Below are positions 21,404 through 46,303 of a DNA stretch of 64,000 nucleotides, in pieces (position 1 is the stretch's first letter; each line of letters opens with the position of its first letter). This stretch comes from Acidobacteriota bacterium (GTDB taxonomy: Bacteria > Acidobacteriota > Vicinamibacteria > Vicinamibacterales > UBA2999). The notes beneath the pieces are model-generated. The model ran no database searches. It was given only the letters and a program-made list of their open reading frames with translations, and was not told where the DNA came from. The translations under genes were made by a program, and so were the position numbers. The stretch is from contig CANIBQ010000005.1 in assembly GCA_947465645.1 (NCBI GenBank), forward strand, positions 55,680 to 119,679. The letters run 5' to 3'.

Positions 21404-22378
21404 GTGAAGGTTGATGGAAAGGCCGTCACGCTCGCGCTGGCGCTTCTGGTGATCAGCATTCCTGCGTTCGCCCAGATCGATCTGACCGGCTCCTGGAATC
21501 CCCGGCTGCACGAAGATTGGATGGAACGGTGCTGTGGCCGCGACCTCGGCGACTACACCGGCCTGCCGATCAACGACGAGGCGCGCGCGAAGGCGCTGTC
21601 GTGGGACGCGTCGCTCAACTCGCTGCGCGAGCGGCAGTGCCTGTTCTTTTCGCCCTGGGCCGGGCAGTTTCAACCGCAGGGGGTCCGCATCTGGAACGAG
21701 TTCGATTCGGGCGGTCGGATCGTCGCGTGGAAGCTGAGCGGCAACGTCCAGAAAGACGTCGTGACCATCTGGATGGACGGCCGTGCGCATCCATCCCCCA
21801 ACGCGTTCCATCCGTTCTCCGGCTTCACGACGGGCCAGTGGGAAGGGGACACGCTGACCGCGTACACCACCCACATGAAGACCGCGGTGCTGCGGCGAGC
21901 CAACGGCGTTCCGAAGAGCGATCGGGCCACCGCCACCATCCACATCACGCGGCACGAGGACCTGCTCACCGTCGTGACCATCGAAGAAGACCCCATCTAT
22001 CTCACCGAGCCGCTGGTGATCAGCCGCACGTTCCAGCTCGACCCGCGCGGCGACATACCGAAGTGGACGTCGTGCGACGCCGTCACCGAGATCGAGCGGC
22101 TGGAAGGCACCGGCATCGTGCCGCACTACCTGCCTGGCGGGAACCCGGGCGTGGACTACATGTCGAAGACCTACAACCTGCCGCACGAAGCGGCGATGGG
22201 GTACGGCGAGACGCTGTATCCCGAGTATCGCAAGAAGATCAGGAACGGCTACAGGCCGCCGCACGAGTGCGGCCGGTACTGTTGCGGCTGGCTGTCGGTG
22301 GCGTCGGGCTCGGCCAACCCGGCTCCTAACATCAAGTGCACCATCGAAGCCACCAGCGTGATCGGCGTCGAACGGTAA
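21404..22378 (+). CDS. Secreted WEGDT-family protein, divergent member
   Basis: A 324-residue exported protein, start GTG at 21404 with GGAGA upstream and a signal ending PAFAQ. It contains DLTGSWNP, MDGRAHPSPNAFHPFSGF and GQWEGDTLTAYTTH, which tie it to the four other paralogues in this locus (22872, 23743, 36344, 43447). It has extra paired cysteines (ERCCGRD, GRYCCGWLS) that the others lack. No characterised homologue is known to me; secreted and probably beta-rich. About 265 bp upstream, apart from the permease leader hairpins, show no gene. Confidence 0.72.
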   Translation: MKVDGKAVTLALALLVISIPAFAQIDLTGSWNPRLHEDWMERCCGRDLGDYTGLPINDEARAKALSWDASLNSLRERQCLFFSPWAGQFQPQGVRIWNEFDSGGRIVAWKLSGNVQKDVVTIWMDGRAHPSPNAFHPFSGFTTGQWEGDTLTAYTTHMKTAVLRRANGVPKSDRATATIHITRHEDLLTVVTIEEDPIYLTEPLVISRTFQLDPRGDIPKWTSCDAVTEIERLEGTGIVPHYLPGGNPGVDYMSKTYNLPHEAAMGYGETLYPEYRKKIRNGYRPPHECGRYCCGWLSVASGSANPAPNIKCTIEATSVIGVER

Positions 22379-22404
22379 CCTCTCGTGGTTTAGGATCGTG
22401 ACGC

Positions 22405-22424
22405 CTGGCGTAGAGTATGGCTGC
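22405..22424 (+). promoter_or_regulatory. Conserved 20-mer upstream of a DUF6152 gene
   Basis: CTGGCGTAGAGTATGGCTGC occurs here and, with one change, at 38485-38504, each time upstream of an exported-protein gene of this locus. TAGAGT/TAAAGT could be the -10 element of a promoter; no clear -35 is visible. Confidence 0.45.
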
Positions 22425-22452
22425 TAGACATACCGTGTTTGAGGAGGTCTCG

Positions 22453-22845
22453 ATGAGAGCGAAGCTCGCAGTCGTCGCGGTTGGCGCTGGCCTGTTGTGC
22501 CTGGCGGCGCCGCTGATCGCCCACCATTCGTTCTCCGTCGAGTACGACGTGAAGAAGCCGGTCAAGGTGACCGGCACCGTGGTGCGGCTCGAGTGGACCA
22601 ATCCGCACGCCCACCTCTACGTCGAGACCGTCGAGAACGGTACGAAGATGACGTGGAACTTCGAGATGGCCAGCCCGAACATTCTCGAGCGGAACGGCTG
22701 GACGCGGAAGGCCGTCAAGGCGAACGACACGGTGGTGGTCGAAGGCTACATGGGCCGCGCGGACGCGAGTCGCGGGATCGCGAACTCGATCAAGTTCGCG
22801 GACGGCAAGGCGCTGTTCGCGGGCGCGCCAGACCAGCAGCCATAA
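22453..22845 (+). CDS. Exported DUF6152 protein
   Basis: A 130-residue exported protein with strong GAGGAGGT ribosome-binding site before the ATG at 22453. After the signal, the mature protein opens AHHSFSVEYD and carries KVTGTVVRLEWTNPHAHLYV, NFEMASPNILERNGW and KANDTVVVEGY, the DUF6152 pattern: a small beta barrel, perhaps OB-like. The conserved His-His at the mature N-terminus is a potential metal site. It is 27 nt upstream of a WEGDT-family gene and is the first of four copies in the locus. Confidence 0.85.
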   Translation: MRAKLAVVAVGAGLLCLAAPLIAHHSFSVEYDVKKPVKVTGTVVRLEWTNPHAHLYVETVENGTKMTWNFEMASPNILERNGWTRKAVKANDTVVVEGYMGRADASRGIANSIKFADGKALFAGAPDQQP

Positions 22846-22871
22846 CGAAGCGGACCCGGCAGGAGTACACG

Positions 22872-23672
22872 GTGAAGAAACTACTTGTCGTCCTCGGCAT
22901 CGCGCTGGCGTTGCCGATCTTTGCGCAAACGCAGAATCCGCCGGCTGAAGTCCCGTTCCGCGCCGGCGGGACGACGCCGCTGGCCACCAACGCGGCCGCC
23001 CCGGCGCCGCGCATGCCCGATGGCTCGATCGATCTCTGGGGCACGTGGGTCGGCGGCGGGCCGATCAACGACATCGCCAAGGACGGCGGGCTGCCGGAGG
23101 GCGAGATCGAGAAGATCCTGCAGCCGTGGGCGCTCAAGCTGCGCGACTCGCGGAAGGATCCGGAGGATCCGCACAACTTCTGCCTGCCGATGGGCGTGCC
23201 GCGCCAGGCGGGCGCGTTCCCGTGGCGCTTCGTGCAGTACCCCACCCACAAGAAGGCCACTCACATGTTCATCCTGTGGGAGGGCTTCCGCAATTACCGG
23301 CAGATCTTCATGGACGGCCGGAAGCACACCGAGGACCCGACGCCGACCTGGTTCGGCGAGTCCATTGGCTGGTGGGAAGGCGACACGCTGGTCATCGACT
23401 CGATCGGCTTCAACGACAAATGGTGGTGGGACCGCCGCGGGACGCCGCATACCGAGCAGCTCCACATCATCGAGCGCTGGACGCGCGTGAGTTACGGCAC
23501 CCTTCGAAACGAAGTCACCATCGACGATCCGGGCGCGTTCACCAAGCCGTTCACGCTGCGCTTCACGGCCAGGCACAGCGCGCCGGGCGACGAGCTGAAG
23601 GAGTATATCTGCGAGGAGAACAACCAGTTCGGCCTTGCCGGCGGCCACGCGAATCCCTACGCGGGCAAGTAA
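22872..23672 (+). CDS. Secreted WEGDT-family protein
   Basis: A 266-residue exported protein, GTG start at 22872, signal ending PIFAQ. Core features: MPDGSIDLWGTWVGGG, FCLPMGVPRQ, IFMDGRKHTEDPTPTWFGES, IGWWEGDTLVIDSIGFND, GTPHTEQLHIIERW, TIDDPGAFTKPF and ICEENNQFG. The same order occurs in the products at 23743, 36344 and 43447. The family is uncharacterised; the conserved His, Glu and Asp residues could form an active or metal site, but that is speculation. It pairs with the DUF6152 gene just upstream. Confidence 0.75.
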   Translation: MKKLLVVLGIALALPIFAQTQNPPAEVPFRAGGTTPLATNAAAPAPRMPDGSIDLWGTWVGGGPINDIAKDGGLPEGEIEKILQPWALKLRDSRKDPEDPHNFCLPMGVPRQAGAFPWRFVQYPTHKKATHMFILWEGFRNYRQIFMDGRKHTEDPTPTWFGESIGWWEGDTLVIDSIGFNDKWWWDRRGTPHTEQLHIIERWTRVSYGTLRNEVTIDDPGAFTKPFTLRFTARHSAPGDELKEYICEENNQFGLAGGHANPYAGK

Positions 23673-23742
23673 TGAGGAGAACTCGGGCGCGCCGGATGGT
23701 CCCGCTCGATAGAGACAGGTCGGACGCTTCAAGGAGACGAAC

Positions 23743-24585
23743 GTGAGAAAACTACTGGTGGTGTCGATCGCCCTTGCGGTCACGGTTCTGCTCGTGCAGC
23801 TGCAGACGCAGGCGCAGGGACAGACCGACAGCGGCGTGCGCTACATCAATCCCGGCAGCCCGACCGTGCCCGACGACATGGTGACCAGCCAGCCGGTTCC
23901 GCGCCTGCCCGATGGCAAGGTGGATCTGACAGGGCCCTGGGTGGGCGGCGGATCCAACGGCGACATCGAGCGGGACGGCGGACTCAAGCCGGGCGAGCTG
24001 CCGCTGCTGCCGTGGGCCAAGGCGCTCCGGGACAAGCGGCTCTCCAAAGACGAGCCGTACACCGCGTGCCTGCCGATGAGCGTGCCGCGTGTGAACCCGT
24101 ATCCCTGGAAGTTCGCCATGTCGTACACGTCAAAAGGCCTGTCGCACATTTACGTGCTGCATGAGACCGGTGACGCCGGGGCGCACCGCGTGGTCTACAT
24201 GGACGGCCGCAAGCACCCGGACGACCTGATCCCGAGCTGGTGGGGACACTCGATCGGCCGCTGGGAGGGCGACTCGCTGGTGATCGACACCGTCGGCTAC
24301 AACGACAAGTTCTGGTTCGACAGCCGCGGCACACCCCACACCGAACAGCTCCACACCGTCGAAAAATGGACGCGCCTGAACTACGGACGGATTCAGAATG
24401 ACTTCACGCTGGACGATCCCGGCGCGTTCTCGAAGCCGGTGCAGTTGAAGTTCACCGGCCGGCTCCTGCGCCCGGATCTCAAGACCGGCGGCGGCGACCT
24501 GATGGAGTTCATCTGCCTCGAGGACAATGAATATGGTGCGGCGGCCGGGCTCCAAGGCATCGGCTCCGGCACCGGCAACAAGTAA
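23743..24585 (+). CDS. Secreted WEGDT-family protein
   Basis: A 280-residue exported paralogue, GTG start at 23743 with AAGGAG seven bases upstream. It shares VDLTGPWVGGGSNGD, CLPMSVPRVNPYPW, YMDGRKHPDDLIPSWWGHS, GRWEGDSLVIDTVGYND, GTPHTEQLHTVEKW and LDDPGAFSKPV. It lies directly between the WEGDT gene at 22872 and a second DUF6152 gene, giving the order DUF6152, WEGDT, WEGDT, DUF6152, cytochrome. Confidence 0.75.
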   Translation: MRKLLVVSIALAVTVLLVQLQTQAQGQTDSGVRYINPGSPTVPDDMVTSQPVPRLPDGKVDLTGPWVGGGSNGDIERDGGLKPGELPLLPWAKALRDKRLSKDEPYTACLPMSVPRVNPYPWKFAMSYTSKGLSHIYVLHETGDAGAHRVVYMDGRKHPDDLIPSWWGHSIGRWEGDSLVIDTVGYNDKFWFDSRGTPHTEQLHTVEKWTRLNYGRIQNDFTLDDPGAFSKPVQLKFTGRLLRPDLKTGGGDLMEFICLEDNEYGAAAGLQGIGSGTGNK

Positions 24586-24623
24586 TCACCCGTTTCTATC
24601 CGGACACTTGTGGGAGGTATGCA

Positions 24624-25022
24624 ATGAGAACGACGTTCGGAATCCTGGTGGCCGCGCTTGGCCTGTTCACTCTGACCGCGCCGGCGTCGGCGCATCACGG
24701 ATTCGACACCGAGTACGACGCAGCGAAAAAGGTCAAGCTCACCGGCACCGTCACGCAGGTCGCCTGGACCAATCCACACATGCGCGTCTACGTCGATGTC
24801 ATCGGCGCCGACGGCAAGGTGACCAACTGGAACCTCGAGCTGACCAGTCCTAACTCCATCCGGCGCGCGGGCTGGGGCCCCAACGACCTCAAGCCCGGCG
24901 ACAAGGTGGTGTTCGAGGGCTTCGGCGGCAAGGTGGTCGAGAGCCGTGGATCGCTGCAGTCGATCACGAAGGTGGGCGACAGCAAGCCGCTGTTCGTCGG
25001 CGGCGGACCCGGTGCCCAATAG
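24624..25022 (+). CDS. Exported DUF6152 protein
   Basis: A 132-residue exported protein with the same plan as 22453: mature start AHHGFDTEYD, KLTGTVTQVAWTNPHMRVYV, ELTSPNSIRRAGW, KPGDKVVFEGFGGK. Start ATG at 24624 with GGGAGG upstream. Its stop overlaps the probable GTG start of the downstream cytochrome, so the two are translationally coupled. Confidence 0.85.
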   Translation: MRTTFGILVAALGLFTLTAPASAHHGFDTEYDAAKKVKLTGTVTQVAWTNPHMRVYVDVIGADGKVTNWNLELTSPNSIRRAGWGPNDLKPGDKVVFEGFGGKVVESRGSLQSITKVGDSKPLFVGGGPGAQ

Positions 25023-26205
25023 ATCCGGCGGAGGGTGCGACGGTGCGACCTCGCACTCTCGCACCCTCGCACCGTCGTACCGTCGCACCGTAGCCAGCGC
25101 CATCGGCGTAGCCATCGCATGCTGGTTGGGTCTGGGCGTCTCCGTCGCGGGTCAGGCAGCGCCAGAGCCCGCCGTGCCGATGTCGGAGCAGGTGTTCAAG
25201 AACGTCCAGATACTGAAGGGCATCCCGGTAGACGAGTTCATGGACGTGATGGGGATGTTCTCCTCGTCGCTCGGCTACGACTGCGCGAGCTGCCATTCCC
25301 GCGCGATTAGCACCGACCGCGCGGCGTTCGCGATCGAGACCCCGGCGATCACCCGGGCGCGCGGGATGATGGCGATGATGAACAACATCAATCGCATGTA
25401 TTTCGGCGGGCAGCCGCGCATGACCTGCTTCACCTGCCACCGCGGCAACTACATCCCCGAGAACATCCCCAGCCTGGAGATGCAGTACGCCACCCTGTTC
25501 GACGATCCCAGCTCGATCAGGATCCTGGCCGACAAGCGGACGACCGTCGAGCAGGTGTTCGACAAGTACATGCAGGCGCTCGGCGGCGCCGACCGCGTCG
25601 CGCGGCTCACGAGCTACACCGCGAAGGGCACTTACGCCGGCTTCAACACGGGCGGTGCCGATCTCCCGGTCGAGATCTACGCCAGGGCCCCCAACCAGCG
25701 CACGCAGATCGTCCGCGCGCCGGACGGCGACAGCGTCAAGACGTTCGACGGCCGCAATGCGTGGGCGGCGGAAGGGTGGCGGCCGTTGCCGCTCATGCCG
25801 CTCACCGGCGGCAACCTCACCGGCCTGCAGGCCGATGCGATCGTCGCGTTCCCCGCGGACATCCGCAAGGCCTTCGCCACGTGGGAGGTCGGGACGGCAA
25901 CCGTCGATGACAAGGGGCTCCAGGTGCTTCAGGGCACCAACCCGGGAGAGCTCCCGGTCAACCTCTACTTCGACGATGCCGGGCTGCTGGTGCGGCAGGT
26001 CCGATGGAACAGGACGGCTGCCGGCACGGTGCCGACCCAGGTCGATTACTCCGATTATCGCGACGTCGCGGGTGTCAAGGTGCCCTTCAACCTGCTCATG
26101 ACGTGGACCGATGGGCAGAACACGTTCTCGTTGACCGAGGTGAGGCCGAACGTCGCCATCGAGGCGGCACGATTCGCCAAACCGGCTCCATTCCAGCGCA
26201 AGTAG
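25012..26205 (+). CDS. Dihaem reaction-centre-type cytochrome c with LolA-like C-terminal domain
   Basis: Exported protein of 397 residues from the GTG at 25012. Residues about 57-150 match the photosynthetic reaction-centre cytochrome c subunit family, but with only two haem sites, CASCH at 91-95 and CFTCH at 139-143, instead of four. A C-terminal half (LGGADRVARLTSYTAKGTYAGF..., FDGRNAWAAEGW) resembles lipoprotein-sorting-type domains. The N-terminal 25 residues are coded by an octamer repeat array, so the true start is uncertain. A paralogue lies at 37300. Probably a periplasmic electron carrier for a respiratory or oxidative enzyme; no phototrophy genes are present. Confidence 0.8.
   Translation: MPNRSGGGCDGATSHSRTLAPSYRRTVASAIGVAIACWLGLGVSVAGQAAPEPAVPMSEQVFKNVQILKGIPVDEFMDVMGMFSSSLGYDCASCHSRAISTDRAAFAIETPAITRARGMMAMMNNINRMYFGGQPRMTCFTCHRGNYIPENIPSLEMQYATLFDDPSSIRILADKRTTVEQVFDKYMQALGGADRVARLTSYTAKGTYAGFNTGGADLPVEIYARAPNQRTQIVRAPDGDSVKTFDGRNAWAAEGWRPLPLMPLTGGNLTGLQADAIVAFPADIRKAFATWEVGTATVDDKGLQVLQGTNPGELPVNLYFDDAGLLVRQVRWNRTAAGTVPTQVDYSDYRDVAGVKVPFNLLMTWTDGQNTFSLTEVRPNVAIEAARFAKPAPFQRK
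25033..25090. repeat. Octamer repeat array with inverted arm
   Basis: Five tandem octamers of TCGCACCG type (25051-25090: TCGCACTC, TCGCACCC, TCGCACCG, TCGTACCG, TCGCACCG), preceded by two inverted copies (25033-25048), so the array can fold into a hairpin. It overlaps the leader or N-terminal codons of the cytochrome gene. A related GGTGCGAT doublet is at 19475-19489. Confidence 0.85.
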
Positions 26206-26236
26206 CGTTCGTTAATCGATAGATCGACCACGGAGA

Positions 26237-29200
26237 ATGCGCATGAATTTGTCTGTACGGATCGTCGCCTTCGGAGCGCTCGTTCTACTTCTGACCAGCG
26301 CCGCAGCCTCCGCGCAGGCGACGGCGCAGCTCACCGGACGCGTGGCGGATGAAAGCGGGGCGATCCTCCCCGGCGTGACAGTGACGGCGACGCAGACCGA
26401 CACGGGCTTCTCGCGAACCGCGGTCACCGACGCCACCGGTGGCTACGTCATGCCGAACCTGCCGACCGGTCCCTACCGGCTCGAAGTGACGCTCGCGGGC
26501 TTCCGCACCTACACGCAGACCGGCCTCGTGCTGCAGGTCGGCGGCACGCCGACCATCAACGTCACCCTGCAGTTGGGCCAGCTCGCCGAAACGGTCTCGG
26601 TCGAGGCGGCGACGCCGCTGGTGGACGTCAAGAGCGCGGGCATCAGTGACGTCGTCGAAAACGAGCGCATCGTCGAGCTGCCCCTCCAGGGACGGAATGT
26701 CACCGACCTCATCGTGCTGGCGGGCGCCGCCATTCAGACGGGCACGTCGGACAGCCGCAGTATGCAGGGGGGCGTGAGCATCTCGGTGGCCGGCGGCCTT
26801 TCCTTCGGCGTGGCGTACAGCCTCGACGGCGCGATGCACAACAATCCGCAGAACAACGCCAACCTGCCGCTGCCGTTTCCTGATGCGCTGCAGGAATTCA
26901 GCGTGGCCACGAGCGGCCTGTCGGCGCAGAACGGCATGCACTCGGCGGCGTCGGTCAACGCCGTGACGAAGTCGGGCACCAACAGCTTTCACGGCAACGC
27001 GTTCGAGTTCCTGCGGAACCACAAGTTCAACGCGCGGAATCCGTTTGCGGCGATCGGACCGGACGGCAAGCGCCTGGACGACGGCTTGAAGCGCAACCAG
27101 TTCGGCGGAACGGTCGGCGGGCCGATCGCCAGGGACAGGCTGTTCTTCTTCGGCGCCTATCAGGGCACCAAGACCGCGCAGCGCCCGGCGGCCAACAAGG
27201 CGTTTGTCCCGACCGCGGCGATGATGGCGGGCGACTTCAGGCAGTTCGCGTCGCCGGCGTGCAACGCCGGGCGGCAGATCACGCTGCGCGCGCCGTTTGT
27301 GAACAACACCGTCAACCCGGCGCTCTTCAGCCCGGCGGTCTTGAACCTTGTGAATCGGCTGCCGAGCACGACCGACCCGTGCGGCGAAGTGACCTACGTG
27401 ACGTCGAATGACAGCAGCCAGAGTCAGGCGGTGGGCCGGATCGACTATCAGCTGTCCTCGAATCGCAGCCTCTTCGGCCGGTATATGGCCACCATCTATG
27501 ACGAGCCTGCGCCCTTCAGCAAGTCGGGAAACGTGCTGACGACGGGGACGCCCGGACTGGATAACCTGGCGCAGTCGCTCGCATTGGGCGATACGGCGGT
27601 CTACGGCAACAACATGGTCAACGCCATCCGGTTCGCGTTCAACCGGACCTCGATCCACCGCGGCACGCCGCCGTTCTTCGAGCCGAAGGACCTCGGTTCG
27701 AGGGTTCACAGCTACCAGCCTGGCGAGATGGTGCTCGCAGTCACCGGTGGGTTCAACATCTCGGCGGGCACCGCGACGACGGGCATCTTCGACACCAACA
27801 CGTTCCAGTTCGGCGACGACCTGACACTCGTCCGCGGCAACCACCAGTTGGGCCTCGGCGCGAGCGCCGCGTACTGGAAGATGAGCTTCCTGACCCACGC
27901 GCGTTCGGGCGGCAACTGGATCGTCAACGGGCAGGCGACCGGGGCCGGGCTTGCCGACCTTCTGATCGGCCGGATCTCGAGCCTCGAGCACGGCGGACCC
28001 GGCATGCTGCCGATGAACATGCTGTACATGGGCCTGTATGCCCAGGACACGTGGCGCATGACGAGCCGCCTGACGCTCAATTCGGGCGTCCGCTGGGAGC
28101 CGTACTTCGGGCAGAACGTCGAGAACAACGCGATCTATAACTTCGACAGGGAGAATTTCGCGAACAACGTGAAGAGCACCGTGTTCGTGAATGCCCCGGC
28201 GGGCCTCCTCTACCCGGGCGACGAAGGCTTTCCCGGCGGCAAGACGGGGCTGAACAAGCAGTGGTGGAATTTCTCGCCGCGCGTCGGGCTCGCCTGGGAT
28301 GTGAACGGCGACGGCAGGACGGCGCTGCGGTCGTCGTACGGCATCTCGTACGACTTCCCGACGGCGGAACGGCACAACATCAACGCGCAGGCGCCGCCGT
28401 TCGGCAACCGCTCGCTCATCGTCGATCCTCCGGGTGGGTTCGACAATCCGTACGGGCACCTGCCCGGCGGCGATCCGCATCCGATCGCGACGAACCGTGA
28501 CACCTTGTACATCCCGGGCGGCGCGTTCGGCGCGACCGACCCCGAGATCAACTCGCCGCGCATCCAGTCGTGGAATGTCACTCTCGAGCGCGAGCTCGGG
28601 AGGGAATGGGGCGCGTCGGTCAGCTACCTGGGCAGCCACTCCGATCGGCTGTGGAACCAGTTGCAGATCAATCCCGCGGTGTTCCTCGGCACGGCGCCGT
28701 GCGTACTCGGCGGCGTGTCGTTCGCGGTGTGCAGCACCACCGCCAACGTCGACGCGCGGCGCACGTTGACGCTGTCCGGAGAGAACCCGGGCGCGGCACG
28801 GCTGCTCGGCAACATGGATCTTCACGTCAGCATGGGCAAGCAGAACTACAACGGGCTGAAGCTGTCGGCCCGCCGCCGCTCGGCGGACGGCGTCAGCCTC
28901 AATGCCAACTACACCCTGTCTCGGTGCTACGGCGACCTGACCACCGGCGGGTTCCCCCAGCTCGCGCAGGGATATACCAACCCGGCCGATCCGGCCATGG
29001 ACCGCGGCCACTGCGAGCAGGACCGCACCCATCTTGGCAGCCTGACCGTCGGCTACAGGACGCCGGCGTTCGGCAACCGCGGGCTGAACATCGTCGCGTC
29101 GAACTGGCGCGTGTCGGGCATCCTGTCGGCGCGCTCGGGCAGTTGGCTGAGCGTCACCACCGGCAGCGACCGCTCGCTCAACGGACAGCGCTTCCAGGAA

Positions 29201-29575: not shown

Positions 29576-29611
29576 GGAACACCGGTCTCCGGCATCTGAG
29601 ACGAGGGTGAG

Positions 29612-31009: not shown

Positions 31010-31021
31010 ATCCAGGCACTG

Positions 31022-35671: not shown

Positions 35672-35725
35672 TGTGCGGTATCCTGCTTGAGACCACCTCT
35701 ATTCCGGCGACTGGGAGGAAGCGCA

Positions 35726-35923: not shown

Positions 35924-36327
35924 GAACGAAATTCGGGATCCTCGCGGCTCTGTTCAGCCTGATCGGCTCGGGGGCCGGCCTGCTTGCCCATCACTCGTTC
36001 TCGACGGAGTACGACGGGAGCAAGACGTTCACGTTCAAGGGCACCGTCTCGAAGGTCGAATGGACCAACCCTCACGTGCGCTTCTATCTCGACGTCGTCG
36101 AGGGCGGCAAGACCAACACGTGGAACATGGAGCTCGCGAGCCCGAGCGCGCTGGCGCGCAACGGCTGGACGAGCCGCACCCTCAAGGTGGGCGACACGTT
36201 GACCGTCCAGGGATACGCGGCGAAGGTCGCGCCGAACCGTGGCAACGCGCGCTCGGTCATCACGGCTGACGGCCGCGCGCTCTTCGGCGGCGCTGCCGAC
36301 GACAATGGGCCGGCCGGCAATCAATAA
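35920..36327 (+). CDS. Exported DUF6152 protein
   Basis: A 135-residue exported protein, start ATG at 35920 with GGAGG upstream. Mature start AHHSFSTEYD, then TFKGTVSKVEWTNPHVRFYL, MELASPSALARNGW and KVGDTLTVQGYAAK. It is followed after 16 nt by a WEGDT-family gene, repeating the 22453/22872 gene pair. Confidence 0.86.
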   Translation: MRTKFGILAALFSLIGSGAGLLAHHSFSTEYDGSKTFTFKGTVSKVEWTNPHVRFYLDVVEGGKTNTWNMELASPSALARNGWTSRTLKVGDTLTVQGYAAKVAPNRGNARSVITADGRALFGGAADDNGPAGNQ

Positions 36328-36343
36328 GCTCGGAGGATCGCTG

Positions 36344-37180: not shown

Positions 37181-37186
37181 ACCTGG

Positions 37187-37293
37187 TTGTCAGTTGTCAG
37201 TTGTCAGTTGTCAGTTGTCAGTTGTCGGAAGGCAACAAGCTAGACTGCGGCGTTCCGACCACTGACCACCGACAACTGACAACTGACAACTGA
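37187..37293. repeat. TTGTCAG heptamer array with inverted partner
   Basis: Five exact TTGTCAG heptamers plus a variant sixth (37187-37228) face inverted copies CTGACAA (37270-37293) across about 41 nt, so the gap between two co-directional genes can fold into a long hairpin. The same heptamer lies at 53238-53307, also inside an operon. Confidence 0.92.
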
Positions 37294-37299
37294 GACACC

Positions 37300-38439: not shown

Positions 38440-38484
38440 TCCGGGTGCGCCGCGCCGACCGTGGCGTAGTCGGGCAACTGCATT

Positions 38485-38504
38485 CTGGCGTAAAGTATGG
38501 CTGC
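38485..38504 (+). promoter_or_regulatory. Conserved 20-mer upstream of a dihaem cytochrome gene
   Basis: CTGGCGTAAAGTATGGCTGC, one base different from 22405-22424, 53 nt before the start of the next gene. TAAAGT is a candidate -10 element. Confidence 0.45.
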
Positions 38505-38557
38505 CTTGGGGCAGGCTCCCCTGGGAAACACGGTTAATCGAGTTGAGGCACCCGCAC

Positions 38558-39631
38558 ATGCGCACACTTCTGGCTGCCGCTTTCGTGGTTCTCGTTCTCG
38601 TCGCCCAGGGCGGCACCAGCGCCGCTCAGGCCCCCGCCCCAAACCCGAACGCGCCCGACATTGAAAACGGTCGGAAGGTCTATGCCTTTGGCAATACGTC
38701 CTGCTCGAACTGCCACGGCGCCGGGGCGGTGGGAGGGTGGGGTCCCGACCTCGCCGGCAAGGGGATCACGGTCGCGCAGGCGGTGAAGGCGATTCGCAAG
38801 CCGTACTGGAAGATGCCCGCGTTCGTCCCGTCGCAGGTGACGGACAAGGAAATCATCGACATGGTGGCGTACTGGAACAGCCTCCCGGAGACCAAGGAGC
38901 TGGGCAAGTGGCGCTTTGACATGGTGCTGAATGCGCCGAAGGGGCAGGAGCTGGCGGTGAACGTCCTCGGCTGCTCGATGTGTCACGGCCTCACGCTGAC
39001 CACGCCGCGCCACGGCGCCGGCGAGGTTGTCGGTGACTTCGAATGGTTCAAGCACCAGGTCTACAACCATGACGTCGCCATGGCGGAGCAGTGGAAGATG
39101 CTCGACCGCGAGGCCGCGCCGTCCTCGACACCTGGCCCGGGCCGCGTCCGCATGGGCAATTACGATCCGAAGCGCGTCACCGAGGCGATGCTCCGCGACA
39201 TCTACGACTGGATTGCCGACCTGGGCATCCTCGTCCCGATCTCGGCGCGTATCACCGCGGGGCCTGCCGAAGCGGCCGGCACGACCTACACCGTGGACGT
39301 GGCCAACGGCGCCGTGCCGAACAAGGGCCTGACCGCTGAAGGCGTGACCATCTCGGTGGTCGTCCCGCCTGGCCAGAAAGTCGTCTCGGGCGGCGGCACC
39401 GGCTATGCGGGCGTCAAGAAGCAGGGGAACGACGACGTGGCCACGTGGAAGGTCGCCAAGTTCGCGCCGAAGGATCGGCAGAAGTTCACGCTCACGCTCG
39501 CGGGGACCGCGACCGGCAACGCCGTGCCGCATGGGACCGTCGCGTGGGAGAAGCCGGCGGCCAAGTCGGACGCCGACGTCGACTTCGCGCTGCCGCGACC
39601 CGCCGGACGCGGGGCCGGAGCGGGGGACTAG
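38558..39631 (+). CDS. Dihaem cytochrome c with C-terminal beta-domain
   Basis: A 357-residue exported cytochrome. Haem motifs CSNCH at 49-53 and CSMCH at 139-143; the first domain resembles class I cytochromes. The C-terminal 120 residues (ARITAGPAEAAGTTYTVDV..., VVVPPGQKVVSGGGTGY) look like a fibronectin-like or DUF11-like beta domain. The ATG at 38558 is preferred to the TTG at 38543. An intrinsic terminator follows, so this gene closes its transcript. Confidence 0.8.
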   Translation: MRTLLAAAFVVLVLVAQGGTSAAQAPAPNPNAPDIENGRKVYAFGNTSCSNCHGAGAVGGWGPDLAGKGITVAQAVKAIRKPYWKMPAFVPSQVTDKEIIDMVAYWNSLPETKELGKWRFDMVLNAPKGQELAVNVLGCSMCHGLTLTTPRHGAGEVVGDFEWFKHQVYNHDVAMAEQWKMLDREAAPSSTPGPGRVRMGNYDPKRVTEAMLRDIYDWIADLGILVPISARITAGPAEAAGTTYTVDVANGAVPNKGLTAEGVTISVVVPPGQKVVSGGGTGYAGVKKQGNDDVATWKVAKFAPKDRQKFTLTLAGTATGNAVPHGTVAWEKPAAKSDADVDFALPRPAGRGAGAGD

Positions 39632-39671
39632 CCCAGCACGCAGATCACCAGGTCACACACGTCGGCATCCG

Positions 39672-39693
39672 CGGCCGCCCTCACGGGCGGCCG
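39672..39693 (+). terminator. Intrinsic terminator
   Basis: A 9-bp G-C-rich stem, CGGCCGCCC with GGGCGGCCG, around the loop TCAC and followed by TTTCTTC. It lies 40 nt after the dihaem cytochrome and 28 nt before the TonB receptor gene, so it separates two transcripts or attenuates read-through. Confidence 0.8.
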
Positions 39694-39721
39694 TTTCTTC
39701 ATTGCGGAAGAGGTCACGCAC

Positions 39722-42700
39722 ATGACGCGCGTCTCTCGGACCCTGTCGCACGCCTCACTGATCTTTCTCCTCACGAGCGCCGCCACGTTCGCGCAGGGAA
39801 CGGCGGAACTGAACGGCCGCGTCACCGACGAAAGCGGCGCGGTGCTGCCGGGCGTAACCGTAACCGCGGTACAGACGGCCACCGGGCTGACGCGCAGCTC
39901 GGTGACCGACGACACCGGTTCGTATTTCTTCTCCACCCTGCCCACCGGACCGTACCGGCTCGAAGTGGCCCTCCAGGGCTTCAAGACCTACGTGCAGACC
40001 GGCATCGTCCTGCAGGTGGGTGCGACGCCGACGATCAACGCGTCGCTCGCGCTCGGATCGCTCGAGGAGTCGGTGACGGTCGAGGCCGCGGCGCCGATTG
40101 TCGATGTGCGCAGCGCCGGCATCAGCTCGGTGGTCGAGAACGAGCGCATCGTGGAGCTGCCGCTGCAGGGGCGCCAGGTCACCGACCTGCTGGTGCTCGC
40201 GGGCGCGGCGGTCCAGACTGGCGTCCCGGGACGCGGCGTTCCGGGCGGGGTGTTCATTTCGGTGGGCGGCGGGCTGGTCAACGGCGTGGCCTACACGCTT
40301 GACGGCGCCAACCACAACAACATGCAGAGCAACGCGAACCTGCCGCTGCCGTTCCCCGACGCGCTGCAGGAGTTCCGCGTCGGCACCAGCGGCCTATCCG
40401 CCCAGAACGGGATGCACTCGGGGGCAAGCGTCAACGCGGTGACCAAATCGGGCACCAACCGCTTCACCGGCAACGCATTCGAGTTCCTGCGCGACCGCCA
40501 TTTCAACGCGAAGAGCCCCTTTGCCCTGATCGGTCCGGACGGCAAGCGGGTGGACGACGGCCTGCGGCGCAACCAGTTCGGTGGCACACTCGGCGGTCCG
40601 ATCGTCCGCGAAAAGCTGTTCTTCTTCGGCGCCTACCAGGGCACCGCCACGCGCCAGGTGCCGGCGTCGAACATCGCCTTCGTGCCGACGCCCGCGATGC
40701 TGGCGGGTGACTTCACGACGTTTGCATCGCCGGCCTGCCAGGGCGGCCGGCAGGTCAACCTGGGCGCGCCATTCGTGGGAAACCGGGTCGACCCGGCGCG
40801 GTTCAGCCCGGCGGCGGTGAACATCGCCAAGCGGCTGCCGGCGACCAGCAACCCCTGCGGCCAGATCACGTTCGAGCTCCAGAACAGCTCCGACGAACAC
40901 CAGCCGATCGGCAGGCTCGACTACCAGATGACCTCCAACCACTCGATGTTCGGCAGGTATATGGTGAGCCGTAACGTCGCCCCGCCCGGGTACTCCGGGG
41001 GCGATGACAATCTCCTGCAGACGTTCCAGCCGGGAAGCTACAACATGCTCCAGTCCGTGACGGTGGGTGACACCATGGTCTTGAGCACGTCGGTGGTCAA
41101 CTCGATTCGCGGGTCCTACAACTACACCAAGGTGCAGCGCTACCAGACGCCGTTCTTCGGCCCGAAGGATATCGGCTCGAACGTCTACAGCTATCCGCCC
41201 GGAGGGCAGATGGTGCTGAACGTCACCGGCGGGTTCCGAGTCTCACAGGGGACGGCGACGAAGCGGGAAGAAATCAATACGGCTTACGGGGTTGCCGATG
41301 ACATGACGGTGCTGAAAGGCAACCATCAGTTCGGGTTCGGCGGCAACGTGCAGTACTGGGAGGGTGACTACAACTCGTCGTCCCGCACTGGCGGCAACTG
41401 GATCATCGACGGCCGCGCCACTGGTCTGGGGCTCGCGGACTTCATGGTGGGACGCGTCACCAGCCTCGAGCATGGCGGGCCCAACATCCTGAACGTGGAC
41501 AACTGGTACATGGGCCTGTACGCGCAGGACTCCTGGCGCGTGTCGAGCCGAGTGACGATCAACGGGGGGCTGCGCTGGGAGCCGTACTTCGGCCAGAACG
41601 TCCTGAACAACGCGGTGACGATCTTCGTGATGGACAATTTTCTGAAGAACGTCAAGAGCGCGGTGTTCCGCAACGCGCCGGCCGGATTGATCTATCCGGG
41701 GGATCCCGGATTCCCGCGCGGCCAGACCGGGTTGGACGTCCAGTGGTGGAACCTCTCGCCGCGCGCCGGCGTGGCGTGGGACGTCCACGGCGACGGCCGT
41801 CTGGCGGTCCGGTCGTCTTACTCGATGGGGTACGACTTCATGGCGGGTGAGTACCACAACATCAACGCCGGCGCGCCGCCCTTCGGCAACCGTTCGATCA
41901 TCACGGACCCCACGGGGCTGCTCGACGATCCGTATCGACAGGTCGGCGGCGATCCCCATCCAATCGTGACCGGGCCCGACACCAACTACGTGCCGTTTGG
42001 CGCCTTCGGCACGATGGACCCGGGTATCAACTCGCCGCGCTCGCAATCGTGGAATGCGACCGTCGAGCAGCAACTGGGCACCAACTGGGGCGTATCGGTC
42101 AGCTATCTGGGCGGCTACTCCGATCGACTCTGGGCGCAGAGCGCGATGAACCCTGGGGTCTTCATGGGGCTCGGGCCATGCGCGATCAACGGCGTCTCCT
42201 ACACAGTCTGCTCGACCAACGCCAACCTCAATCAGCGGCGGGTGCTGTTTCGGCAGAACCCGCGGGAGGCCGCGTTCATCGGCGCGCTCGATCTGAATTC
42301 GGACGTCGGTTACCAGAAGTATGCCGGCCTCAAGCTCTCGGCCCAGCGACGCGCGGCCAGCGGCGTCAGTGTCAACGGCAATTACACGCTGTCGCGCTGC
42401 ACCGGCACGGCCACCACCAACAGCTTCAACCAGACCAGCACCGGCTACACCGATCCGTCGAATCCGTCGTACGACGAAGGGCCCTGCGACCAGGACCGCA
42501 GGCACCTGGCGACGCTCAGCACCGGCTACGAGACGCCGGAGTTCGGCAACGCGGCGCTGCGCGCGATCGCCTCGCACTGGCGGCTGTCGGGCATTCTCAA
42601 CGCGCGTTCTGGCAGCCGGCTCAACATCATCAGCGGCCTGGACAACGCGTTCACCGGCATCAACGACCAGCGGCCCAACAAGGTCAACGACGACTTGTAC

Positions 42701-43015
42701 GGTGCGAAGACGCTGACCAGCTACTTCAACCGCGCCGCCCTCGCGCAGCCGGCGCCTGGCACCCTTGGCAATCTGACTCGTAACGCCGCGATCGGGCCGG
42801 CGTTCTGGAACATCGACCTCGCGGTGTCCAGGCTCATCCCGATGGGGACGCGGCGGCTGGAGTTCCGCATCGAATCGTTCAACCTGCTGAACCACTTCAA
42901 CTGGGGCGATCCGCAGGCGAACCAGTTGAACTTCAATAACGGGCAGTTCGGTCGTATCACCACGCAGGCCGGCGCGCCTCGCATCATGCAGTTTGGGGTC
43001 AAGTATGACTTCTAG
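39722..43015 (+). CDS. Oar-type TonB-dependent receptor, paralogue
   Basis: A 1097-residue outer-membrane receptor closely related to that at 26237: signal ending ATFAQ, carboxypeptidase-regulatory domain (GRVTDESGAVLPGVTVTAVQ), plug with ENERIVELPLQGRQVTDLLVL, barrel ending QFGVKYDF. Its stop overlaps the start region of a DUF6152 gene, so receptor and DUF6152 protein are co-expressed, unlike the first copy, which is followed by the copper-monooxygenase-like gene. Confidence 0.94.
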   Translation: MTRVSRTLSHASLIFLLTSAATFAQGTAELNGRVTDESGAVLPGVTVTAVQTATGLTRSSVTDDTGSYFFSTLPTGPYRLEVALQGFKTYVQTGIVLQVGATPTINASLALGSLEESVTVEAAAPIVDVRSAGISSVVENERIVELPLQGRQVTDLLVLAGAAVQTGVPGRGVPGGVFISVGGGLVNGVAYTLDGANHNNMQSNANLPLPFPDALQEFRVGTSGLSAQNGMHSGASVNAVTKSGTNRFTGNAFEFLRDRHFNAKSPFALIGPDGKRVDDGLRRNQFGGTLGGPIVREKLFFFGAYQGTATRQVPASNIAFVPTPAMLAGDFTTFASPACQGGRQVNLGAPFVGNRVDPARFSPAAVNIAKRLPATSNPCGQITFELQNSSDEHQPIGRLDYQMTSNHSMFGRYMVSRNVAPPGYSGGDDNLLQTFQPGSYNMLQSVTVGDTMVLSTSVVNSIRGSYNYTKVQRYQTPFFGPKDIGSNVYSYPPGGQMVLNVTGGFRVSQGTATKREEINTAYGVADDMTVLKGNHQFGFGGNVQYWEGDYNSSSRTGGNWIIDGRATGLGLADFMVGRVTSLEHGGPNILNVDNWYMGLYAQDSWRVSSRVTINGGLRWEPYFGQNVLNNAVTIFVMDNFLKNVKSAVFRNAPAGLIYPGDPGFPRGQTGLDVQWWNLSPRAGVAWDVHGDGRLAVRSSYSMGYDFMAGEYHNINAGAPPFGNRSIITDPTGLLDDPYRQVGGDPHPIVTGPDTNYVPFGAFGTMDPGINSPRSQSWNATVEQQLGTNWGVSVSYLGGYSDRLWAQSAMNPGVFMGLGPCAINGVSYTVCSTNANLNQRRVLFRQNPREAAFIGALDLNSDVGYQKYAGLKLSAQRRAASGVSVNGNYTLSRCTGTATTNSFNQTSTGYTDPSNPSYDEGPCDQDRRHLATLSTGYETPEFGNAALRAIASHWRLSGILNARSGSRLNIISGLDNAFTGINDQRPNKVNDDLYGAKTLTSYFNRAALAQPAPGTLGNLTRNAAIGPAFWNIDLAVSRLIPMGTRRLEFRIESFNLLNHFNWGDPQANQLNFNNGQFGRITTQAGAPRIMQFGVKYDF

Positions 43016-43436
43016 GAAAATGTCCGGGATCATCATCGGCGTGGCCGCGCTCGCCTGCGCGGCCACGCGTCCAGTGTCGGCGCATCATTCGTTCAGCGCC
43101 GAATTCGACGAGAACAAGTGCAGCGAGCTGACCGGCAAGCTGGTTGGCGTCGACTGGCAGAACCCGCACCCGTATTTCTTTGTCGAGGGGAAGAACACCA
43201 GGGGCGAAACCGCGAAGATGACGTTTCAGACGTCGTCGATCGCCAACATGACTCGCGGTGGCACGCCACGGGCGTACTTCATGGAGAACATGGGCAAGAC
43301 GGTGATCGTCCGGGCCTGCGCCTCGATCAACGGCACCGACAACCGGTTTGCCGCCTCGTGGGTCAAGCTTCCCGAGGAGAAGGTTCCTCACCGAACCGGC
43401 CAGGACGTCGAAAAAATCTTTGGCTCGAACAATTAG
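43005..43436 (+). CDS. Exported DUF6152 protein
   Basis: A 143-residue exported member of the family, more divergent: mature start AHHSFSAEFD, ELTGKLVGVDWQNPHPYFFV, and a lysine-rich tail. It has cysteines (ENKCSEL, VRACAS) the others lack. The ATG at 43005 overlaps the TonB receptor gene by 11 nt and gives a basic n-region (MTSRK); the ATG at 43020 is an alternative. It is followed after 10 nt by a WEGDT-family gene. Confidence 0.8.
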   Translation: MTSRKMSGIIIGVAALACAATRPVSAHHSFSAEFDENKCSELTGKLVGVDWQNPHPYFFVEGKNTRGETAKMTFQTSSIANMTRGGTPRAYFMENMGKTVIVRACASINGTDNRFAASWVKLPEEKVPHRTGQDVEKIFGSNN

Positions 43437-43446
43437 GAAGGTCCGC

Positions 43447-44295
43447 ATGACACCACGAGTCAGCTGTTCGATGCAGGTGTTGGGGGCGATTGCCGCGATC
43501 GCCTTCCTGTCCGGCACCGCCGCGGCGCAGGAACCCGCGGGCGAGGCGAAGAAGCCGCTGGTCGAGGCCATCGGCACGACCGATCCGGGTCCGCTTCCCC
43601 CAGGGGGACCGGCACCGCGGATGTCCGACGGCAAACCGGACCTCTCGGGAATCTGGTTCGCGGGCGTCATCGGCCGGCCGAGCGCGTGGAGCCGCACGCG
43701 CCCGGAGCGCATCGTCGAAGAGCCTGTGCCTCTCAAGCCCGAGATTGTCGCGAAGTTCAAGGCGATGACCCGCGCCGAGATCGAGGCGGCGGACCCGACT
43801 GTCAACTGCCTGCCGCGCGGCGTCCCCGGCATGTTCACGATGAACCCGCACCCGACCGAGCTGGTCACGTACCCGGGCAATTTCATCCAGCTCGTCGAGG
43901 CGGGCAACCAGTGGCGCAAGATCCACACGGACAAGCGTCCTCACCCGAAGTATCCTGACCCGCTCTTCAACGGTAACTCCAGCGCCTGGTGGGAAGGCGA
44001 CACGCTGATCGTCGACACCGTCGGCTTCGACCAGCGCACCTGGGTGTCCAATGCGTGGCCGCACAGCGAAAACATGCGCGTCATCGAGCGCCTGCGGCGG
44101 CCCTCGAAGAACTACCTCGAATACCAGTTCACCGTCGAGGATCCGGAGTTCCTCACCAAGTCATGGACCTCCGGGTGGCGGAAGTTCACGCTCGCCCAGC
44201 AGGACGCGAGCCTGCTCGAGAACTACTGCACCAACGAGCAGAACTCGGAGCAGTTCAGGATCCTCGCGGATCAGGAGAAGAGCGGGAAGCAGTAG
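43447..44295 (+). CDS. Secreted WEGDT-family protein
   Basis: A 282-residue exported paralogue, ATG at 43447 after GGAAGG. It has PDLSGIWFAGV, NCLPRGVPGMF, WWEGDTLIVDTVGFDQRTW, PHSENMRVIERLRRP and TVEDPEFLTKSW. It is the most divergent of the four core paralogues. It ends one base into the start codon of the lactonase gene. Confidence 0.72.
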   Translation: MTPRVSCSMQVLGAIAAIAFLSGTAAAQEPAGEAKKPLVEAIGTTDPGPLPPGGPAPRMSDGKPDLSGIWFAGVIGRPSAWSRTRPERIVEEPVPLKPEIVAKFKAMTRAEIEAADPTVNCLPRGVPGMFTMNPHPTELVTYPGNFIQLVEAGNQWRKIHTDKRPHPKYPDPLFNGNSSAWWEGDTLIVDTVGFDQRTWVSNAWPHSENMRVIERLRRPSKNYLEYQFTVEDPEFLTKSWTSGWRKFTLAQQDASLLENYCTNEQNSEQFRILADQEKSGKQ

Positions 44296-45308
44296 TGCGA
44301 CATTTCGTCTTCGCGCTGGCGGCGCTGCTCCTGCTGGTCGCGGCCCCTTGCCGCGGCCAGGGCCGGGGCCAGGCCGGGGAAGGCGCAGCGCAGCAGCCGC
44401 CCGCCAGCGCCATCGCCTCCGCCATTCCCAGCGTCGTCGCAGCCGGCGCCAAAATCGAACTCGTCACGTTTCCCGTGCAGGGCACCGAAGGTCCTGTTGG
44501 ACTCCCTGACGGCAGCGGCATCATCTTCACCGAGACGCGCGCCGACCACATCACGAAGGTCGACGCGAGCGGCAATACCTCGACGTTCGTCGAAAAATCC
44601 AACGGATCGAACGGCCTCGGCTTCGACGCGAAGGGCCGTCTCATCTCGGTGCAGCGCGCGCCGGGCAACGAGAAGGTCGGCGTCCTCTATCCACCCGGCA
44701 GCGAAGCCACGCTGGTGGATAGCTTCGAAGGTAAGCCCTTCAACCGCCTGAACGACCTCGTCGTCAGCACCAGGGGCGGGGTCTACTTCACTGACACGCA
44801 AGGCGTGTATTACCTGCCGCCGGGCGCGCCCGGCAGCGCCGTGAAGAAGGTGATCCAGGGCATCAGGAATCCGAATGGCATTCTCCTGAGCCCTGACGAG
44901 AAGGTCGCGTACGCGAACGACAAGGACGGCTTGTACCTGCTGGCGTTCGACGTCCAGCCTGACGGCACGCTGGCCAATCGCCGTAATTTCGGCAAGTACA
45001 AGAGCCTCACCGTGCCAGGCCACAAGGATCCGCTGCTGGCGGAAGACAACGGAGCGGATGGCCTTGCGATCGACAGCGAGGGCCGCGTGTATGTGGCGAC
45101 GAACCTCGGCGTGGAAGTCTTCAGCCCGCGAGGCGAGCACCTGGGAGTGATCCCGATAGGCATCTGGGGCGGCGAGCAGAACATGCTGCGCAAGCCGCAG
45201 AACCTGACGTTCGCCGGACCGGACCGGAAGACGCTGTATACCGTCGGCGCCAACGCGATCTACCGCGTCCGGTTGCTGTCCGAGGGATTCAAGGGCCGCG
45301 GCAAGTAG
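44295..45308 (+). CDS. Exported SMP-30/gluconolactonase-family protein
   Basis: A 337-residue exported protein of the SMP-30/LRE beta-propeller family, including lactonases and gluconolactonases that open lactone rings with a divalent metal. Visible family features: GTEGPVGLPDGSGIIFTE at the metal-ligand Glu, NGLGFDAKGRLIS, NRLNDLVVSTRGGVYFTD, NPNGILLSPDEKVAYAND and NGADGLAIDSEGRVYVA, matching the ligand Asn and Asp positions. Signal peptide ends CRGQ. The GTG at 44295 overlaps the previous stop by one base. It could hydrolyse lactones made by the oxidative enzymes of this locus. Confidence 0.86.
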   Translation: MRHFVFALAALLLLVAAPCRGQGRGQAGEGAAQQPPASAIASAIPSVVAAGAKIELVTFPVQGTEGPVGLPDGSGIIFTETRADHITKVDASGNTSTFVEKSNGSNGLGFDAKGRLISVQRAPGNEKVGVLYPPGSEATLVDSFEGKPFNRLNDLVVSTRGGVYFTDTQGVYYLPPGAPGSAVKKVIQGIRNPNGILLSPDEKVAYANDKDGLYLLAFDVQPDGTLANRRNFGKYKSLTVPGHKDPLLAEDNGADGLAIDSEGRVYVATNLGVEVFSPRGEHLGVIPIGIWGGEQNMLRKPQNLTFAGPDRKTLYTVGANAIYRVRLLSEGFKGRGK

Positions 45309-45310
45309 GG

Positions 45311-46303
45311 ATGCGCAAACTGGTCGGCCTGCTCCTGCTTGGTGTGTTGCCGCTTTTCATCACGGGTGTCCTGCGCGCAGCCACCGATCCCCCTGCGTGG
45401 GCCTACGCGGTGTCGCCGACGCCCCCAGGCGGCGCCGCGGCTTCCGCCGAGCCGGCCCACGATCCCAATGAGCTCCACCAGGTTCCTGGGAGCAGCCGGC
45501 GCTTCACGATCGCGCAGATCGAGAATGCCAACGAGCCCGCCGACTGGTTTCCGGAAGATCATCCGGCAATGCCCGAGGTGGTGGCGAGGGGGCGCGCCGG
45601 CTCCGCCGTCCGTGCCTGCGCCTTCTGTCACATGCCGAACGGCAAGGGCCGGCCGTCGAACGGCTCGGTCGCCGGGCTGCCGGTCAGCTACTTCGTGCAG
45701 CAGATCGAGGACTTCAAGAACGGCCTGCGCAAGACGGGCGAACCGCGCAAGACAAATGTGAACCAGATGATCGCCATCGCCAGGGGGATGACCCCGGAGG
45801 AGATGCGGATCGCTGCCGAGTATTACGGTTCGATGAAGTGGACTCCCTGGATCCGGGTGGTCGAGGCGAGCGTGGTGCCGAAGACCCGGATCTCCGGGTC
45901 GATCCATTACACCCTCCCCGGAACGCAGACCGAGCCGATCGGGATGCGGATCATCGAGGTACCGGAAAACAACGAGCAGAGCGAGCCGCTGCGCAACCCG
46001 CGCTCAGGATTCGTGGCATACGTACCGCGCGGCAGCATCGAGAAAGGGGAGGCGCTCGTCACCACCGGCGGCAACGGCCGTACAGTCGCGTGCGGCATCT
46101 GCCACGGCGCCGATCTCCGCGGCATGGGCCCCGTGCCGCACATTGCCGGCCGCTCGCCAAGTTATCTCGTGCGCCAGATGTACGACATGCAGGTGGGCGC
46201 CCGGCGCGGCGAGTGGAGCAGCCTCATGAAGCCCGTCGTCGACAAGCTGACCGACGAAGACTACGTCTCGATCGCCGCCTACGTTTCCTCGCGCACGCCC
46301 TAA
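45311..46303 (+). CDS. Dihaem cytochrome c
   Basis: A 330-residue exported cytochrome, start ATG two bases after the lactonase stop. Haem motifs CAFCH at 103-107 and CGICH at 261-265 in two class I-like domains (DLRGMGPVPHIAGRSPSYLVRQMYD after the second). Such two-domain cytochromes often serve as electron acceptors for periplasmic dehydrogenases. It ends the oxidative locus; repeated mobile DNA begins 3 nt downstream. Confidence 0.85.
   Translation: MRKLVGLLLLGVLPLFITGVLRAATDPPAWAYAVSPTPPGGAAASAEPAHDPNELHQVPGSSRRFTIAQIENANEPADWFPEDHPAMPEVVARGRAGSAVRACAFCHMPNGKGRPSNGSVAGLPVSYFVQQIEDFKNGLRKTGEPRKTNVNQMIAIARGMTPEEMRIAAEYYGSMKWTPWIRVVEASVVPKTRISGSIHYTLPGTQTEPIGMRIIEVPENNEQSEPLRNPRSGFVAYVPRGSIEKGEALVTTGGNGRTVACGICHGADLRGMGPVPHIAGRSPSYLVRQMYDMQVGARRGEWSSLMKPVVDKLTDEDYVSIAAYVSSRTP

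Follow-up and report, generated by a model that had tools for sequence, protein, structure and literature searches.

Introduction

SusC/SusD systems pair a TonB receptor with a binding protein, have expanded by lineage and presumably devote one pair to each substrate. Another described protein, PufC, has four CxxCH motifs. Among copper proteins, YcnI was linked to the metal through a conserved His at its predicted mature N-terminus, and the site was termed a mono-histidine brace (accessible part of PMC8424229), while the canonical histidine brace requires signal cleavage and pairs residue 1 with another His (accessible part of PMC10952591). Here we analyse a locus at positions 21404–46303 of a 64,000-nucleotide stretch, hereafter the window, from an Acidobacteriota bacterium of the UBA2999 lineage (GCA_947465645.1, contig CANIBQ010000005.1, positions 55,680 to 119,679 of the forward strand). 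It shares features with each of these systems and is built around two protein families, DUF6152 (PF19649) and WEGDT, an unnamed family whose label is taken from the initial annotation of this DNA.

Our results point to DUF6152 and WEGDT as cognate periplasmic partners at the heart of a module multiplied within one lineage, its copies being tuned to different small molecules, a proposal whose chances we consider evenly balanced. The modules are best read as lineage-expanded systems for periplasmic capture and oxidation of small molecules.

Pairing of DUF6152 and WEGDT

Four window proteins pass the curated PF19649 cut-off of 27 bits, at 47.7–99.6 bits, and no other Pfam family, SusD included, exceeds its cut-off in them. 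The initial annotation had listed three DUF6152/WEGDT pairs in a recurring order (22453/22872, 35920/36344 and 43005/43447). All three are real, and their modular arrangement recurs well outside the window, but a fourth DUF6152, at 24624 (92.9 bits), had been missed; also overlooked were the fused genes, the His-His conservation, the association with DUF6644 and how far the families have expanded, all described below.

The WEGDT proteins 22872, 23743, 36344 and 43447 are mutually homologous (28–54% identity, E 1e-21 to 1e-99), and a fifth protein, 21404, belongs to the family at a greater distance (E 4e-8). No Pfam family, SusD included, matches any of the five, an NCBIfam scan of 22872 and 23743 gave nothing convincing, and PDB sequence searches gave no convincing match for 22872 and chance-level rows for the family profile. 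The predicted fold of 22872 is a beta-barrel (pLDDT 81, pTM 0.78), perhaps lipocalin/FABP-like, with a conserved cysteine pair, and three charged residues are kept over 156–157 alignment rows (D219 in 100%, E201 in 95% and R202 in 90%).

The best of three loci found in the genome collection (L001) is labelled Candidatus Sulfopaludibacter (Acidobacteriota), with an 88% identical WEGDT and the order WEGDT, receptor, then WEGDT-DUF6152 three times in tandem. Its genome, G001, is the closest found, and its 4.1 Mb contain 69 matches to DUF6152 and 101 to WEGDT; among 40 relatives, the highest DUF6152 count reaches 86 in one genome. Adjacency was measured in 20 hand-picked G001 regions, multi-copy contigs first, where our own profile finds 39 DUF6152 (the whole-genome count of 69 is that of Pfam). 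WEGDT lies at most 500 bp away from 33 of these 39, two of them being fusions, whereas placing the genes at random in those regions gives a mean of 10.4 and a maximum of 19 in 2000 trials. Thirty-one of the 33 close pairs are on the same strand, with DUF6152 first in 22 and WEGDT first in 9. By profile, 20 control stretches of G001 devoid of DUF6152 contain 2 WEGDT genes in 400 kb; looser clustering puts 4 of their genes in a distant WEGDT cluster.

The two families also co-occur between genomes. Both are present in 24 of the 40 relatives (G001 included), WEGDT only in 2, DUF6152 only in none and neither in 14; across 297 genomes of the phylum, with the counts of the two families treated as one and the same draw, the corresponding numbers are 37 for both, 1 for WEGDT only, 2 for DUF6152 only and 257 for neither. 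The p values (5e-9 and 1e-43, respectively) ignore kinship and are overstated, because the genomes are related. As WEGDT was scored for at most 64 candidates per genome in the relatives and at most 8 in the phylum, its counts are lower bounds and its absences weaker. In G211 and G270, which have one match of each family, the two genes are at most 0.9 kb apart. The independent scatter that the initial annotation had named as its refuting case is thus not seen, adjacency and co-occurrence both holding.

Two G001 genes are single frames with DUF6152 at the N-terminus and WEGDT at the C-terminus. A search with one of them found 884 homologues among 7998 candidates scored; among the best 120 of the 884, 119 have PF19649 and nearly all are full length, most with 320–345 residues. 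This fusion family, of which L047:3366-4364 is a natural example, is the strongest evidence that DUF6152 and WEGDT act together. The distance matrices of the partners are also correlated (r = 0.738 over 90 adjacent pairs and 0.667 when the 34 from G001 are taken alone), a value reached by none of 2000 shuffles in either case. No pathway predominates among the genes beside the pairs, of which 129 out of 133 candidates were scanned; the commonest family is Lactamase_B, in 7.

The Pair in a Second Phylum and the DUF6644 Unit

DUF6152 and WEGDT occur together on all five sphingomonad plasmid regions read, out of 8 records with a match. One plasmid carrying both families is that of Sphingobium TomTYG65, a strain mentioned in work on the breakdown of tomato saponins (PMC10653915); since the accessible part of that paper makes no mention of TonB, periplasm, hypothetical protein or DUF, no substrate is inferred from this strain.

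In the phylum of G003, whose locus L003 is labelled Caulobacteraceae, DUF6152 is found in 42 of 398 genomes, and 30 loci were fetched, one per genome. Ten of the 12 strong-scoring loci have a WEGDT gene at most 1.5 kb away, and none of the 18 weak-scoring ones (L160–L177) does. Next to the divergent DUF6152 of these 18 loci, DUF6644 is found in every case; only 7 of the 18 are independent, because 11 of the 14 rows of the DUF6644 profile come from these loci. By Pfam alone, DUF6644 is matched by 11 of 61 scanned neighbours at E 1e-4. These 61, out of 90 called open reading frames around stand-alone DUF6152 (the rest being DUF6152 itself, short or overlapping frames), include no known copper-homeostasis gene among the 25 commonest of their 60 families. 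DUF6644 is short, reads as a membrane protein and has one invariant His in 14 rows. Together with a DUF6152 of predicted mature start HHG, it apparently forms a separate two-gene unit. In 15 hand-chosen genomes, DUF6644 is over cut-off in 8 of 8 that bear pairs and 0 of 7 that do not, two of these seven carrying sub-cut-off matches; a profile search found no DUF6644 in the window.

Organization of the Locus

Every gene named in the initial annotation is an open reading frame at its given place, with the SMP-30/gluconolactonase-like (SGL) gene starting near 44295, 44309 being out of frame. The locus comprises 20 genes on the + strand, in tight runs, and one on the − strand; 4 DUF6152, 5 WEGDT, 2 reaction-centre-type dihaem cytochromes and 2 Oar-like receptors are among them:

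21404–22378, +, distant WEGDT-family protein (E 4e-8 to WEGDT 23743; no Pfam match)
22453–22845, +, DUF6152 of pair 1, predicted mature N-terminus HHSF (PF19649, 99.6 bits; OB-fold model)
22872–23672, +, WEGDT of pair 1, beta-barrel model (pLDDT 81, pTM 0.78; 3927 homologues at E 0.001)
23743–24585, +, WEGDT of pair 2, in reversed order (48% identity to 22872)
24624–25022, +, DUF6152 of pair 2 (PF19649, 92.9 bits)
25012–26205, +, reaction-centre-type dihaem cytochrome c with extra C-terminal domain (PF02276, 46.0 bits; two CxxCH)
26237–29575, +, Oar-like TonB-dependent receptor (CarboxypepD_reg, PF13620, and OMP_b-brl_4, PF25183 at 643 bits)
29612–31009, +, haem c and copper-monooxygenase-like protein, accessory (PF03712, 19.3 bits, under the cut-off of 23)
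31022–31999, +, heavy-metal-binding-domain (HMBD) protein, accessory (PF19335, 46.3 bits)
31956–33131, −, paralogue of 29612, degenerate or re-purposed (29% identity to 29612)
33166–33963, +, dihaem cytochrome c, accessory (PF00034, PF13442)
33960–35615, +, pyrroloquinoline quinone (PQQ)-dependent alcohol dehydrogenase, probably lanthanide type, accessory (TIGR03075, 575.7 bits)
35920–36327, +, DUF6152 of pair 3 (PF19649, 91.4 bits)
36344–37180, +, WEGDT of pair 3 (54% identity to 22872)
37300–38439, +, reaction-centre-type dihaem cytochrome c (PF02276, 47.5 bits; two CxxCH)
38543–39631, +, cytochrome c with two CxxCH (PF13442, 56.1 bits; counterpart in L041 at 758 bits)
39722–43015, +, Oar-like TonB-dependent receptor (1478 bits to 26237)
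43005–43436, +, DUF6152 of pair 4, divergent (PF19649, 47.7 bits)
43447–44295, +, WEGDT of pair 4, divergent (29–33% identity and E 1e-21 to 1e-29 against the three nearer WEGDT proteins of the window)
44295–45308, +, SGL protein, accessory (PF08450, 92.8 bits)
45311–46303, +, dihaem cytochrome c, accessory (PF00034, PF13442)

As the gaps on the + strand are small (−11 to +74 bp over 21404–31999 and −11 to +119 bp over 35920–46303), the packing is consistent with two operons. With W for WEGDT and D for DUF6152, the order in the first module is W, D-W, W-D, cytochrome, receptor, with one of its pairs reversed. The window contains no tRNA and no Rfam family reaching its gathering score.

Around the locus, an integrase fragment (Phage_integrase) at 46528–46917 follows directly, and transposase- or integrase-like genes are recognised by eye further downstream (56350–57606, 57829–58077 and 59854–60357); the locus therefore borders a mobile-element region. 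At the other end of the window, 35–2994 holds three genes resembling, by eye, a tripartite tricarboxylate transporter.

Cytochromes and Receptors as Neighbours of the Pair

The reaction-centre-type assignment of the cytochromes at 25012 and 37300 stands: both pass the CytoC_RC (PF02276) cut-off of 22.4 bits, and each has two CxxCH. 37300 matches the C subunits of reaction centres in the PDB (best E 2.4e-11), and 25012 scores 52.3 bits against the PufC equivalog NF040706, under the cut-off of 150, in a comparison made for 25012. The C-terminal halves of both proteins form an extra domain with weak similarity to DUF6544 (E 5e-6 in 25012), which perhaps has a lipid-carrier-like fold.

The receptors at 26237 and 39722 are likewise borne out, by Pfam domains on the former and by the match of the latter to it. 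The initial annotation had suggested testing whether the pair co-occurs with such cytochromes (CytC_RC) and with Oar receptors; both do recur as neighbours, but not at every pair. Oar genes account for 11 of 118 genes lying within 2 kb of DUF6152 or WEGDT in the 20 G001 regions, versus 6 of the 481 others (p 5e-5). CytC_RC is not enriched in this sample (2 of 118 versus 2 of 481). Seen from the cytochrome, 15 of the 20 copies listed in G005 and G016 are at most 1 kb from a pair member, 13 of the 15 on the same strand; two L148 cytochromes, also within 1 kb, are left out of the 20, that region having been knowingly chosen. In G001, 7 of 11 copies are within about 1 kb of a pair member, from tables compared by eye. 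Seen from the pair, CytC_RC is a minority neighbour, its cluster being near DUF6152 in 4 of 42 loci. The order WEGDT, CytC_RC, cytochrome, Oar, DUF6152, WEGDT found at 36344–44295 in the window is repeated in L041 of G001.

Two further observations concern these families elsewhere in the window. A further Oar-like receptor is present outside the locus at 5393–8401 on the − strand (107 bits to 26237). At 49911–55882, a cytochrome c, a five-CxxCH protein, a large molybdopterin-oxidoreductase-like protein, a ferredoxin-like protein and NrfD-like membrane proteins, recognised from their translations and, for 49911, with a Pfam scan, stand in a row, which looks like an alternative complex III operon and could link periplasmic cytochromes to the respiratory chain.

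Accessory Enzymes

The PQQ dehydrogenase, the SGL protein and the further cytochromes that the initial annotation placed between the modules are confirmed, but the copper-monooxygenase match of 29612 (Cu2_monoox_C) is short of its curated cut-off. 29612 carries HH, SIHYN, HMH and EEMM motifs, which we take to be candidate copper-ligand motifs, and a PDB search with it gave nothing beyond chance. Its paralogue at 31956–33131 is without HH, HYN, HMH and EEMM and retains the haem CxxCH.

33960 passes the TIGR03075 cut-off of 480 bits; against TIGR04528 (acido-empty-quinoprotein group A), it reaches 532.1 bits, under the cut-off of 650. It retains the CC pair, and its YDYD aligns with the WDFD of 6zcv, giving it the extra, PedH-like Asp. 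We assume that this second Asp marks lanthanide use, and 33960 is probably a lanthanide-type PQQ alcohol dehydrogenase.

Among the 118 neighbours of G001 pairs, homologues of the PQQ dehydrogenase occur once and of SGL twice (p 0.04), and those of the copper-monooxygenase-like and HMBD proteins do not occur. As they are rare near the pairs, these genes look like accessories, and the single pathway of import, hydroxylation, alcohol oxidation and lactone opening that had been proposed for the locus is not supported, since it is not conserved as a unit.

The N-Terminus of DUF6152

In 301 of 311 DUF6152 proteins, a set collected by sequence similarity and not independently sampled, a His-His pair is present right after a signal-peptidase-like motif; the secretion signals of DUF6152 and WEGDT were recognised by motif only. 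The residue preceding His-His is A in 274, G in 24 and S in 1 (299 of the 301), position −3 holds A, V, L, I, T, S or G in 296, and 299 have a PH motif downstream. Ten proteins do not show the pattern: P0174, in which His-His stands at the cut start; three over-long frames; P0332, P0344, P0345 and P0359, which appear truncated or wrongly started; the chimera P0215; and P0216, which lacks His-His. The plasmid proteins have A-HH in 9 of 9, with PH downstream in all eight printed far enough, and the divergent proteins of the G003 phylum have A-HHG and a later PH in 18 of 18.

His-His at the predicted mature N-terminus is a possible copper site, copper in DUF6152 being our hypothesis and not a finding. 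The predicted fold of 22453 is an OB fold, residues 21–30 having a mean pLDDT of 61, and a PDB sequence search with the family profile returned chance-level rows alone. The second ligand of a brace, next to residue 1, would be the tau-N of a His or, as in YcnI, a Glu or Trp. In the close family, W48, W68 and E71 are conserved (numbering of alignment A3, which excludes L001:6334-6669, in the wrong frame, and the chimera P0215). A bis-His brace formed by the N-terminal His and His52 was considered and is doubtful on topology, judged from the model without coordinates, because a long first strand lies between them.

Proposed Working and Alternatives

Under the best reading, an Oar-like TonB receptor would carry the substrate across the outer membrane, and the WEGDT barrel would hold it as a lipocalin/FABP-like cup. 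DUF6152 may dock on WEGDT and contribute the site of reactive or redox chemistry, for which a metal, copper for instance, is the likeliest candidate, and electrons could exit via the dihaem reaction-centre-type cytochrome. At the window locus, the PQQ dehydrogenase, the copper-monooxygenase-like protein and the SMP-30 lactonase could be optional later steps. A more specific version is tentative, and we rather doubt it: DUF6152 would be an undescribed secreted copper family, with an OB fold and a His-His brace at its mature N-terminus, which together with WEGDT substrate cradles and dihaem cytochrome electron partners would make periplasmic mono-copper oxidation systems for small molecules, beside a DUF6152-DUF6644 membrane unit in Pseudomonadota. 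Block duplication alone could yield the matched partner distances, and W48 and E71 are not retained in divergent DUF6152 proteins, which tells against the copper site.

Capture and oxidation has to be set against capture only, in which the pair would be a non-redox binding relay, SusD-like or similar to periplasmic binding proteins, scavenging ligands for TonB receptors, with the cytochromes adjacent for another reason. The barrel model of WEGDT, perhaps lipocalin/FABP-like, and the Oar genes enriched near pairs agree with such a relay, and the expansion of paralogues would suit ligand diversity. It leaves His-His of DUF6152 unexplained, however; 15 of 20 CytC_RC copies in two genomes are beside pair members, and the strict conservation of D219, E201 and R202 suggests that WEGDT does more than greasy binding. 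We regard capture only as possible, if somewhat improbable.

DUF6152 could alternatively work with DUF6644 alone, as a copper (or haem) relay comparable to CopC/CopD or YcnI, WEGDT proteins being its clients or adaptors. This would account for His-His after the signal-peptidase-like motif, in the large set and in all 18 divergent proteins, as well as for DUF6644 beside each of the latter, and YcnI is a precedent (accessible part of PMC8424229). It does not explain, though, why a homeostasis protein should be present some 70 times, no known copper gene is among the 25 commonest neighbour families, and DUF6644 has one invariant His only; we hold it to be unlikely. Hitch-hiking, in which unrelated families of a secreted-protein island grew by block duplication without joint function, would fit the tandem arrays of L001 and could produce matched trees, but it is largely refuted, and very improbable in our eyes, given the fusion family, the co-occurrence over 297 genomes, including those with one match of each family, and the same pairing in a second phylum.

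With some 170 gene copies in a 4.1 Mb genome, the pair of families is probably central to how such bacteria feed, and one half of the pair, WEGDT, has no Pfam model. Cognate pairs, natural fusions and a conserved predicted N-terminus make the system open to direct testing. If true, the copper proposal would add an unrelated fold to the small class of strong oxidants.

Comparison with Known Systems

We found no open-access paper naming DUF6152, PF19649 or DUF6644; the open literature searched gave nothing joining the histidine brace with an OB fold and nothing on TonB-dependent paralogues in Vicinamibacteria, a narrower search on Acidobacteriota and TonB ending likewise. The statement of the initial annotation that it knew of no description of this combination therefore extends to our search.

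33960 has the CC pair in common with PedH/XoxF, as well as an extra Asp that lines up with 6zcv, but is not a regular part of the module. The N-terminal part of CytC_RC is homologous to PufC and matches C subunits in the PDB, whereas the window cytochromes have two CxxCH and an extra C-terminal domain, and 25012 is far under the equivalog cut-off. With LPMO, CopC, PmoF1 and YcnI (DUF1775), DUF6152 has in common a secretion signal, recognised by motif, a His conserved at the start of the predicted mature chain and a further conserved His; it differs from histidine-brace proteins by its predicted OB fold and by His-His instead of one His, copper being hypothetical.

Like SusC/SusD, finally, DUF6152 and WEGDT form lineage-expanded cognate pairs tied to TonB receptors, presumably with a pair for each substrate. 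Their models are a beta-barrel for WEGDT and an OB fold for DUF6152, without any SusD match; in addition, a dihaem cytochrome is often near here, and the receptor is not beside every pair. The logic of the module resembles that of Sus-type systems; its parts do not.

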